Part shown: positions 35,169 to 38,354 of the stretch, one piece after another
Numbering within the stretch: position 1 is the first letter of the stretch
How the letters are laid out: every line of letters starts with the position of its first letter
NCBI GenBank assembly: GCA_003168375.1
Contig: PMSI01000001.1
Coordinates: 1,860,001 to 1,924,000, forward strand
From: Vulcanimicrobiota bacterium
GTDB lineage: Bacteria > Vulcanimicrobiota > Vulcanimicrobiia > Vulcanimicrobiales > Vulcanimicrobiaceae
DNA length: 64,000 nucleotides
Direction: 5' to 3'
Made by a program: the position numbers and the translations under genes
Notes under the pieces: generated by a model
The model's database searches: none
The model's input: the letters and a program-made list of their open reading frames with translations, nothing else
What the model was told of the DNA's origin: nothing

Positions 35169-36620
35169 ATGGCCGTCTGGCTACGCCGTCTTGTTGTTCT
35201 GGTCGCGATCGCCATAGGCGTCTCGGCGCCGCCGGCCGGTGGCTCGACTCCGGCCACGATCAATCAACGATCACAAACGTCGATTACGGGCCATATCGCG
35301 GACGCAAGCGGCATAGCAGTTGAAGGCGCATTGATTCAGCTCTTCCCGTCCGTCGACGTACGCGGCGATAACGAGTATTTCCTCGAGACCCGTGGCACCG
35401 GGACGCTCGGTCAGTTCGCGCTACCGGGAATAAATATAGGACCGCTGAGCTCGCGGCGCCGTGTTTCCGGCCTGGAGCGATCGCCGGAGCGTGTCACTAC
35501 GAGCGATATCAACGGAAACTTTGCAATTCCGTCGGTCCTCCCTGGATACTATCTCTTGACGGCGCAGGCGCTTTCGGGCGACGGAACCACGCTGACCGCC
35601 GGCGCGCGGGTGCTGGACTTCAATGCGCGCTCCTTACGTCCCGGAGAGACTTCCTGGAAACTCAACAAGGTCGAGAAGAGTGCAGCGCCCGCGCCTTTAT
35701 CGTCGCCCACCGCGATCGTGTATTATATGACGGATCGCAATCCGAACGCGACGTCGACCCAAGAGCATCCTCGGTACTCAAACGATGTTTCGGACGGTTC
35801 TCAGCCACGTTACGGTTCCTGCGTCGTAGAGGTCGCTGGACAGCTGAAGACCCAGTGCCAAGAATTGTCCGCACGTGTCGCAATATCGAAAGCGGTTGCA
35901 GACCAAAGAAAAGCATCGCATTCTCAGCTGATCGTGTTTTCTCACGGGTTCAATGTGGACTTTACCGAGGCAATACGAGTTGCCGGAGCACTGTCAAACG
36001 GCACGCATCGCCCCGTTTTCGTATACGATTGGGCCTCAGCAAAGACGCTACTCTACACGCCCGACGAGGATCGCGTGCGCGGAGCCCTCATAAATGATGG
36101 GCGGCAGTTCATCGAAGATCTCGCGGACGCAGTTGGCGTTCGCAACCTCGTGCTGATCGGCCACAGCATGGGCGCGAGAGCGGCTTTTCAGTTCGCGAAT
36201 ACCGTCACCGATAAGCACGTCGGACATGGCGACCGACTTGCTGGGCTCATATTTTTTGCAGGTGACGAATTTGAAACTACGGTGCGAGGTGGCTTGCATA
36301 ATCTGGACCCGTCACCCAATACGGTGCTGAACTACACCTCGAGTCGCGACATTGCGTTGTTGCTTTCGCTGGCGTTTCACTTCGGAAATCAGCGTATCGG
36401 GGCCGACGTCCCAAGGATCGTGGTCGTTGATGGAATGCAGACGGTCGAGTCATCGCGAGCGCAGACCGACTGGCTTGGACACGGCTACTTTACCGATCTG
36501 GGGCTGCTCGATGACCTAAACGCCGCCTTGGATGGGACGCCGCCAGACCAACGTACGAGGACGCTGGCACCCCACACCGGTCAGAACTACTTCGACTTTT
36601 TGTCACGGCTCACACATTGA
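35169..36620 (+). CDS. secreted alpha/beta hydrolase, DUF900 type
   Basis: A 483-residue protein from ATG 35169. Signal peptide: VWLRRLVVLVAIAIGVSAPP. Residues about 35-160 look like a carboxypeptidase-regulatory or SdrD B-like beta-sandwich (HIADASGIAVEGALIQLFPS, FAIPSVLPGYYLLTAQA). Residues about 185-440 are an alpha/beta hydrolase of the DUF900 kind (LIVFSHGFNVDFTEAIRVAG, the nucleophile elbow LIGHSMGARAAF, then YTSSRDIALLL). GC is lower than in the adjacent flagellar genes, suggesting separate origin. It overlaps the convergent radical SAM gene by about ten bases. A lipase/esterase role on a secreted or surface substrate is likely but unproven. Confidence 0.82.
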   Translation: MAVWLRRLVVLVAIAIGVSAPPAGGSTPATINQRSQTSITGHIADASGIAVEGALIQLFPSVDVRGDNEYFLETRGTGTLGQFALPGINIGPLSSRRRVSGLERSPERVTTSDINGNFAIPSVLPGYYLLTAQALSGDGTTLTAGARVLDFNARSLRPGETSWKLNKVEKSAAPAPLSSPTAIVYYMTDRNPNATSTQEHPRYSNDVSDGSQPRYGSCVVEVAGQLKTQCQELSARVAISKAVADQRKASHSQLIVFSHGFNVDFTEAIRVAGALSNGTHRPVFVYDWASAKTLLYTPDEDRVRGALINDGRQFIEDLADAVGVRNLVLIGHSMGARAAFQFANTVTDKHVGHGDRLAGLIFFAGDEFETTVRGGLHNLDPSPNTVLNYTSSRDIALLLSLAFHFGNQRIGADVPRIVVVDGMQTVESSRAQTDWLGHGYFTDLGLLDDLNAALDGTPPDQRTRTLAPHTGQNYFDFLSRLTH

Positions 36621-38052
36621 CGGCGATGAACCTTCGAGCCGCTGCGAGCTTGGTCAGCAGCACTGCCGCCGCTTCGCGCGTTTCGCGCAGCGTGGTCTGG
36701 TAGCGCTCCCGCGCGTCGCCGATGTCGGCCGTGCAGAACGGGCACGTGCCGGTGCCGGCGAAGACGTGCCGGAAGCAGCCGTAGCACACGACGAGCTTCG
36801 CATCGCCGGCGTCCGCGTTGCGCGGCGTGCGATCGACGGCGAGCGCGTCCGTCGCGCGGCCGTCGAGCGTCTCGACGACGATCTCGTACTTGCCGTGATC
36901 GAACGGCTTCCCGGGCGCCGCTTCGACCTGTCGGATGCTCTCGCGCAGGCCCTGCCGCTGTAGCTCTTGCGTGCGGTGGTGGCAGAACGGGTTGTTCCCC
37001 GGTTTTCCGAGCAGGCTGTGCGCCATCCAGGTGCAGCCGCCGCGGCAGACGTCCTTGTAGTAGCAGGTCCCGCAGAATCCCCACTGCGGATCGCGGCGCT
37101 CCCGCGAGAACGACAGCTCCGGCGTGTCGAGCCAGATCGTCGTCAGGTCGAGCTCGCGCACGTTGCCGCCGGCGTACGCGTCGGTCGGGAGCGACGGGCA
37201 GCCCTTCACGGTGCCGTCGGCCTCGATCCCGATCGTGTTCTGCCCGCCCAGGCACCCCTCGTAGTGGATCGTCTCCCAACCGTTGCCGCGCAGCTCGCCT
37301 TCGTACGGCCCGAAATACCCGATGTTGTTGCCGATCTGCAGCAGCACGCCGCTGCGCGCCGCGCGGTGGAAGAGCGCCGAGAGCTTGGGCATCAGCTCGA
37401 GCATGCGGTGGGGCTGCAGGATCATCTCCGGATGATCGCCGGCGCGCCCCATCGGCACGGTCAGTTGCAGCTGCCAGTTCTTCGCGCCGGCCGCGATCAC
37501 GACGTCGAGCACGTCGTCGAGCTGGTCGAGCACCGTCGCGCTGATCTGCGTGTTGACGCTGGTCACCACGCCGTGCTCGCGCAAGCGCTCCAGCGACGCG
37601 ACGGCGGCGTCGAACGATCCGCGCACGCCGCGCAGCTCGTCGTGCAGCTCACGCGTGCCGTCGATCGAGATCCCCGCGGCCCGCAGTCCGGCCTCGACCG
37701 CCAGGCGGATGCGTTGAGCGTTCAGGTTGCGCCCACCGCTCTGCATCGTGCACTGCATCCCGGCAGCGGTGACCGCCGCGATGATCTGCGCGAAGTCGCG
37801 GCGCAGGTACGCCTCGCCGCCAATGAGCGTCACCTCGCGCGTGCCGAGCGCGGCCAGCTCGGCGACGATCCCGAGGCACTCCTCGGTCGTCAGCTCGCTC
37901 GGGCGCGCTTTGCCCGCGCGCGACCCGCAGTGTCCGCACTTGAGGTCGCACGCGAGCGTGATCTCCCAGACGGCGTGTACGGGACGCGACGCCGAGCGGT
38001 CGAGCCGCGTGAGAAAGCGGTTCGGTGTGGTCCCGTCCGCCGCGACGGTCAC
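36610..38052 (-). CDS. radical SAM/SPASM peptide maturase (GDL-motif type)
   Basis: A 480-residue enzyme. The radical SAM cluster motif CxxxCxxC is C35-C39-C42 (ACDLKCGHC), followed by the SAM-binding TLIGGEAYLR. The SPASM region has multiple Cys (YEGCLGGQNTIGIEADGTVK, GCPSLPT, FCGTCYYKDVCRGGCTW, NPFCHHR) for auxiliary 4Fe-4S clusters. A C-terminal extension holds CYGCFRHVFAGTGTCPFC, a likely zinc ribbon. GTG overlaps the stop of the small peptide gene by four bases. Radical SAM/SPASM proteins next to GDL-motif peptides are predicted RiPP maturases, installing thioether or carbon-carbon links. Product unknown. Confidence 0.88.
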   Translation of the reverse strand: MTVAADGTTPNRFLTRLDRSASRPVHAVWEITLACDLKCGHCGSRAGKARPSELTTEECLGIVAELAALGTREVTLIGGEAYLRRDFAQIIAAVTAAGMQCTMQSGGRNLNAQRIRLAVEAGLRAAGISIDGTRELHDELRGVRGSFDAAVASLERLREHGVVTSVNTQISATVLDQLDDVLDVVIAAGAKNWQLQLTVPMGRAGDHPEMILQPHRMLELMPKLSALFHRAARSGVLLQIGNNIGYFGPYEGELRGNGWETIHYEGCLGGQNTIGIEADGTVKGCPSLPTDAYAGGNVRELDLTTIWLDTPELSFSRERRDPQWGFCGTCYYKDVCRGGCTWMAHSLLGKPGNNPFCHHRTQELQRQGLRESIRQVEAAPGKPFDHGKYEIVVETLDGRATDALAVDRTPRNADAGDAKLVVCYGCFRHVFAGTGTCPFCTADIGDARERYQTTLRETREAAAVLLTKLAAARRFIAVNV

Positions 38053-38354
38053 CCCGGCGGCGGCTGATCCTTCTTCGCGTGCGCGGCGCGCAGCTCGGCG
38101 ATCTTCTGCTCGAGCGCGCTCAGCGCGTTGCGGACTTCGTGCACTTCGTGACCCGCGACGTCCGAAAAGTGCGCCTTCGCGCCCTCGGCCGCGGCCGCCA
38201 CCTCGACGCCCTCTTGCTTCGCCCCGCGGGCGATCGCCGTGCGCGCTGCGTCGGCGATGTGCTCCATCTCGTGGAGGTCACCCCGTTTGACCGCATCCCA
38301 GATCGCCGGACCGTACGGCGGCACCGGACCGCGGGATTCTTCGTTCTCAGCCAT
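38049..38354 (-). CDS. GDL-motif/DUF1843-like peptide, putative RiPP precursor
   Basis: A 101-residue peptide. Residues 13-35 (PYGPAIWDAVKRGDLHEMEH) have the DUF1843 pattern YGP-I-DA---GDL, with GDL at 25-27. The C-terminal half is helical, Ala/Glu/His rich, with no cysteine or obvious core. It is coupled to the radical SAM/SPASM gene (GTGA), the usual precursor-maturase organisation. In such peptides the modified site is often within the conserved domain itself. ATG 38354 is chosen because sequence upstream is low complexity. Confidence 0.75.
   Translation of the reverse strand: MAENEESRGPVPPYGPAIWDAVKRGDLHEMEHIADAARTAIARGAKQEGVEVAAAAEGAKAHFSDVAGHEVHEVRNALSALEQKIAELRAAHAKKDQPPPG

Follow-up and report, generated by a model that had tools for sequence, protein, structure and literature searches.

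A DUF1843 protein with an invariant tyrosine is the probable substrate of a zinc-ribbon radical SAM/SPASM maturase, proposed to be of the splicease type, in a Vulcanimicrobiota bacterium

What does a radical SAM enzyme do to a small, cysteine-free protein encoded directly ahead of it? The question is raised by a gene pair on contig PMSI01000001.1 of a Vulcanimicrobiota bacterium, of which a stretch of 64,000 nucleotides, hereafter the window, was analyzed. The first gene, on the minus strand at 38049..38354, runs from an ATG at 38354, a start that agrees with that of relative L009, to a TGA at 38049 and encodes a 101-residue protein (P0001). The second, on the same strand at 36610..38052, begins with a GTG at 38052 that overlaps the TGA of its neighbor as GTGA, stops at 36610, and encodes a TIGR03913-like radical SAM/SPASM maturase of 480 residues (P0002). 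The first-pass annotation had described a GDL-motif peptide coupled in this way to a radical SAM/SPASM enzyme, and both open reading frames and Pfam bear this out. Here, we propose that the enzyme is a maturase of the splicease type that acts on the DUF1843 protein, with excision of tyramine as its course, a reading that we regard as probable. The enzyme probably removes most of a tyrosine from within the chain and reconnects the two sides, yielding a reactive amino acid that is beyond the reach of ribosomes. Eight of the nine neighboring genes scanned have a Pfam match (alpha/beta hydrolase, two flagellar export genes, YbjQ, TelA, Fur, MTHFR, and TetR); the nearest is the convergent alpha/beta hydrolase (DUF900), with the flagellar export cluster farther away. 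In line with the annotation, there is no peptidase or ABC exporter among these nine, and a search of viral_contigs gave no match.

The enzyme matches the Pfam models Radical_SAM (1.4e-21) and SPASM (2e-6). The CX3CX2C motif of the radical SAM cluster (C35, C39, and C42; 37927..37950, minus strand) and the seven cysteines of the SPASM region (C267, C285, C327, C330, C336, C340, and C357; 36982..37254, minus strand) are all kept in 34 of 34 aligned enzymes. The best NCBIfam model is TIGR03913, with 542.5 bits over residues 9-460, which is below the curated cut-off of 591.75; none of 149 genomes of the phylum has an enzyme that passes this cut-off. An adjacent DUF1843 (GDL) gene is a trait of TIGR03913, the GDL-associated maturase, and the window enzyme has such a neighbor. 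The second model is TIGR04103 (nif11-class peptide radical SAM maturase 3), which we take to be the family of the splicease PlpX and presumably the same as IPR026482. The enzyme scores 440 bits here against a cut-off of 725 and, thus, lies outside this family; the model ranked third, far behind both, reaches 163. The PlpXY splicease of Pleurocapsa and its spliceotides are reportedly the subject of Morinaka 2018 (Science) and Scott 2022 (Chem), the latter with a title said to cover both peptides and proteins.

In a tree of 42 rows, built with a quick method and with L015 as a long branch, 31 zinc-ribbon enzymes and nine TIGR04103-side enzymes form two sister groups (SH-aLRT 99 each). The window enzyme is 43-46% identical to TIGR04103-side enzymes. 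It shares with TIGR03913 the best model, the DUF1843 partner, and the zinc ribbon, and differs from it in falling under the curated cut-off and in belonging, with the rest of its family, to a five-row clade of its own. The predicted structure (pLDDT 90.6) resembles SkfB (Z 26.2, rmsd 2.8, 283 residues aligned), SuiB (Z 25.5, rmsd 3.7, 331 aligned), and PqqE (Z 24.0, rmsd 3.8, 290 aligned), comparisons that mostly concern residues 1-359. By sequence, its PDB relatives are general radical SAM enzymes only.

P0001 matches DUF1843 (PF08898) over model positions 1-32 of 52 with 27.3 bits (5.5e-6), above the gathering cut-off of 23.3. Two lines of evidence support the idea that its pairing with the enzyme exceeds chance. 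First, the pair recurs side by side in genomes of the same genus and the same family. Second, co-occurrence across the phylum is exact: among the 149 genomes, DUF1843 matches (E <= 0.001, all above the cut-off) occur in G000, G005, G008, and G024, and zinc-ribbon-type enzymes occur in these same four genomes and in no others; four further genomes carry TIGR04103-like enzymes only. The genome of the window has one enzyme of this type and one DUF1843, and a search of it for DUF1842 gave no match, but the controls gave none either; G008 has two tandem enzyme-peptide pairs.

For a wider sample, 84,980 species were scanned with one genome per species. Of the 577 relatives, the best 80 were kept, which span at least seven phyla, and eight further rows (the window, four kin, and three plasmid records) were added to them. 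Because L010 and L041 are apparently one contig (both 17,557), the 88 rows hold 87 distinct loci, and with about half of them coming from Pseudomonas, counts over these rows are not counts of independent events. The contig of L041 (CAJCIN010000034.1) is titled Rhodospirillales and apparently equals the G024 contig of the window's own family; its record name looks wrong. In 85 of the 88 rows (best 80 of 577 plus eight), the fetched DNA around the enzyme contains a DUF1843-like ORF. L054 and L105 have instead a related RP[ML]YG[IV]FIRD protein; neither was found in the fetched DNA of L113. The phyla with DUF1843 here are Acidobacteriota, Bacteroidota, Gemmatimonadota, Myxococcota, Actinomycetota, Cyanobacteriota, and Pseudomonadota.

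Which part of the protein would the enzyme act on? The annotation had named the peptide after its GDL and had suggested aligning relatives to find invariant residues nearby. GDL is present (residues 25-27; 38274..38282, minus strand), yet it is only partly conserved; the invariant residue is a tyrosine 11 residues upstream of it, Tyr14 in the PPYG of residues 12-15 (38310..38321, minus strand), which we propose as the site of modification. This tyrosine occurs in 166 of the 166 segments with a letter at that position, out of 168 distinct aligned segments (best 80 of 577 plus eight rows), and its column is the only one of zero entropy. Because a profile that contains the tyrosine may prefer it, the profile was rebuilt without the columns of X, Tyr, and the next residue; with the column thus unseen, tyrosine was recovered in 170 of 170 distinct segments from the same rows, followed by Gly (93), Ala (75), or Met (2), so that 168 of the 170 carry Gly or Ala next. 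The site mostly reads P[PLM]Y[GA][VAP]xI. Among 175 distinct longer segments, the triplets are LYA (73), PYG (61), LYG (30), MYA (5), MYG (3), MYM (2), and FYG (1). The residues that flank the tyrosine are linked in the DUF1843 segments of 85 loci: Pro precedes YG only (61 of 61), and Leu precedes YA (73) or YG (30). Y-A is the sole type of scored motif, with no Y-G, at 7 of 85 loci (best 80 of 577 plus eight rows), three of which (L098, L103, and L107) have an additional N-terminal PPYG.

Two candidates were rejected. GDL as the modified element is ruled out by its variation (G in 144, D in 136, and L in 131 of 168 distinct segments), and thioether chemistry of the sactipeptide or ranthipeptide type, which the annotation had already held to be unlikely, is ruled out because none of the 101 residues is a Cys donor. 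In a weak model of the peptide (pLDDT 67), helices span residues 15-24 and 27-47, GDL lies at the turn between them, where a role in recognition or structure is likely, and Tyr14 stands immediately ahead of the first helix. P0001 has no PDB relatives by sequence.

The YG motif extends beyond DUF1843. The ORF that precedes the enzyme was checked for YG, with shuffles as the comparison, at 10 TIGR04103-side loci, and eight of these have it. L014, L018, and L019 have ten copies each of QP[LM]YGV, L017 has five of QPVYGAP, and VYG[AG]P occurs three times in L011, twice in L012, and once in L013. L038 of Nostoc, whose enzyme reaches 853 bits for TIGR04103, has a Nif11 precursor that ends in ALYGLPPELF, with one LYG. 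Counts exceed those of shuffles in L011, L012, L014, L017, L018, and L019; the single YG in L013 and in L038 is within the expectation from composition (shuffle p 0.31 and 0.21), and L015 and L037 show no convincing YG precursor site. A P-x-Y-G signature is common to DUF1843 proteins and TIGR04103-side precursors.

Some of these loci have features of their own. The ten-unit ORFs of L014, L018, and L019 (G142, G148, and G130, all of the window's phylum) encode proteins of ~300 residues, end at 1492, 1512, and 1515 on the strand of the enzyme, and lie directly before it; their units are joined by proline-rich linkers, and each may be a spliced protein with ten sites. Each is followed by an overlapping ORF of 104-108 residues, a cupin by Pfam in L018, the only one scanned. 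In L037, on a Tropicibacter plasmid, a related radical SAM enzyme has two peptidases as neighbors, one trypsin-like and one of the M23 type, along with two further radical SAM genes.

The shared signature bears on whether the DUF1843 protein is a substrate at all. It could instead serve the enzyme as a partner, structural or regulatory, with the tyrosine as a docking residue. Consistent with this, the available text of PMC10994174 describes DUF1843 copies as often several per operon and proposes that they build assemblies, and one member, expressed in E. coli, was studied there and is a stable monomer. That DUF1842-DUF1843 protein was crystallized, its DUF1843 part was not visible, and the same portion of the article mentions no maturase with the expression. 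By contrast, precursors of the sister enzymes, both tandem-repeat and Nif11-type, carry the same YG signature without a DUF1843 fold, and the window enzyme retains every radical SAM and SPASM cysteine. We therefore find a mere partner role improbable and favor the DUF1843 protein as substrate.

What, then, would be the reaction? As described in the available text of PMC10533398, PlpX and its partner PlpY excise tyramine at X-Tyr-Gly, with MYG and LYG as sites and a loss of C8H9NO; PMC11002830 assigns PlpX, the splicease that has been tested, to IPR026482, along with Nif11/NHLP precursors. The PlpXY system and the window pair share a radical SAM/SPASM enzyme and an XYG site (Pro13-Tyr14-Gly15 in the window), and their families are sisters via TIGR04103. 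They differ in that the substrate in the window is a helical DUF1843 protein rather than a Nif11/NHLP precursor, in that the DUF1843 family often has Ala for Gly after the tyrosine, and in the zinc ribbon, fused or coupled, of the window's enzyme family. From the sisterhood with TIGR04103 and the shared YG signature, we infer tyramine excision of the splicease type at P-x-Y-G/A. We suggest that the helical body of the DUF1843 protein (helix-GDL-helix) would be recognized by the enzyme, possibly through the ribbon together with the helix at its C terminus, and that the exposed Pro13-Tyr14-Gly15 would be placed at the active site. A 5'-deoxyadenosyl radical would then attack Tyr14, and a tyramine equivalent (C8H9NO, about -135.07 Da) would be excised. 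The leftover carbonyl of the tyrosine would be joined to that of Pro13 to form an alpha-keto-beta-homoproline joined to Gly15. Because this product would present an electrophilic alpha-ketoamide in which Pro occupies P1, inhibition of serine or cysteine proteases would be its most likely use; the available portions of PMC10373908 and PMC11117315, citing Scott 2022, attribute protease inhibition to the ketoamide products of spliceases.

Several points run counter to this reading. Ala follows the tyrosine in 75 of 170 segments, and 7 of 85 loci have Y-A alone among their scored motifs, whereas the published motif is XYG. The link to PlpX runs through TIGR04103, and no PlpY-like protein is seen beside the window enzyme. 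On the TIGR04103 side, the weak or absent YG sites of L013, L015, L037, and L038 also count against it. The invariant tyrosine could instead serve another reaction or the structure. Among radical reactions, a C-C or C-O crosslink of the cyclophane type or a mycofactocin-like oxidation would leave Gly or Ala a role only in providing room. Such a reaction would fit a tyrosine that is invariant before a residue that is broader than XYG allows, and aromatic residues are targets of other SPASM enzymes, as tyrosine is in mycofactocin chemistry (PMC8326336). For a crosslink, however, a partner at fixed spacing is expected to be invariant too, and the aligned motif has no second invariant column; moreover, in sequence the enzyme is closest to TIGR04103 and not to crosslinking families. 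Another radical reaction at Tyr14 is, accordingly, unlikely in our view, and tyramine excision is the reading that we retain.

The C terminus sets these enzymes apart from their sisters. The annotation had noted a CYGC...CPFC extension, which is indeed present at residues 423-440 (36733..36786, minus strand) as a zinc ribbon of the form CxxC-x10-CPxC (C423, C426, C437, and C440; pLDDT 94-97). Its four cysteines are invariant in the first eight enzymes aligned, and the predicted structure has two short strands here, followed by a long C-terminal helix of 36 residues (444-479; 36616..36723, minus strand). The description of this ribbon as an extra does not hold: a C-terminal CxxC...CxxC is fused in 85 of 88 enzymes (best 80 of 577 plus eight), and the other three have it as a separate gene of 72-74 residues, a natural split form of the C terminus of the window enzyme (L054:6263-6484, L105:6218-6433, and L112:4518-4736). 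By their coordinates, these genes overlap the stop codon of the enzyme by four bases (GTGA, GTGA, and ATGA, respectively). The ribbon is, thus, a near-universal module of these enzymes that can be split off. It occurs in none of the 10 TIGR04103-side enzymes and marks the TIGR03913-type family, which is a result of the present analysis and not a definition taken from the literature.

No PlpY, a truncated RRE, was seen beside the window enzyme, as judged without a PlpY sequence. At the position of the split ribbons, the TIGR04103 locus of Nostoc (L038) has a 71-residue protein of other sequence, likewise with a four-base overlap. Gene position suggests that the ribbon may act as a partner module in place of PlpY. 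The ribbon might also be a dimerization or folding element, or an electron-transfer site like that of rubredoxin, unrelated to substrate recognition; this concerns one step of the proposed course, and we lean only slightly against it. In favor of such a role, two of the three separately encoded ribbons pass the model of a rubredoxin-like zinc ribbon (PF12172); the presence of the ribbon with DUF1843-type enzymes but in none of the 10 TIGR04103-side ones, and its split form, coupled to the enzyme like the 71-residue Nostoc protein, argue for a partner module, in both cases as arguments from position and not as proof.

Is the product a peptide or a protein? The annotation's putative RiPP pathway stands as a conserved substrate-maturase pair. 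Because many relatives of the substrate are DUF1842-DUF1843 proteins of ~200 residues, a modified protein is as likely as a cut, exported peptide. A survey near the relatives covered 93 neighboring ORFs out of 120 that were picked at 21 loci; 27 loci had been chosen, but the ORF picker gave no enzyme at six, and many of the ORFs are likely spurious at high G+C. It showed no recurrent protease or exporter among the 25 commonest Pfam families, which include Methyltransf_25 (6), DUF1842 (4), and DUF1843 (4). In Aureibacter (L036:6402-6965), an ORF directly downstream of the enzyme is annotated as a class I methyltransferase, perhaps for a second modification, and L082, L091, and L097 also have an ORF just after the enzyme.

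The DUF1842/DUF1843 operons of Burkholderia, Pseudomonas, and Chromobacterium have the same peptide domain and enzyme as the window and, unlike it, several substrates each and DUF1842 domains. Such genes reportedly rank with the most strongly induced ones of B. thailandensis in stationary phase (PMC12322963) and of Chromobacterium under quorum sensing (PMC12114271); the latter paper guesses at another system. Our literature search found no paper tying DUF1843 or TIGR03913 to tyramine splicing; Scott 2022 or Morinaka 2018 may contain such a link. In our view, what is most likely new is the occurrence of Ala at the sites and of a zinc ribbon that can be detached. As a bolder and more doubtful extension, all DUF1843/DUF1842 proteins might be ribosomal beta-amino-acid proteins made by a zinc-ribbon-dependent subfamily of spliceases that takes both X-Tyr-Gly and X-Tyr-Ala; the function of PlpY would fall to the ribbon, whether fused or encoded by a coupled gene of 70 residues, and the identity of X (Leu, Pro, or Met) would determine which protease is trapped by the ketoamide.

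For the uncharacterized DUF1843 family, these findings provide a concrete and cheap test, a loss of 135 Da at one tyrosine. If the proposal is correct, proteins reported to be strongly induced in the stationary phase of Burkholderia and under quorum sensing in Chromobacterium would carry an electrophilic backbone that is hidden from the gene sequence. The split zinc ribbons would then offer a two-part splicease for protein tagging, and the X-Tyr-Ala sites would widen its range.
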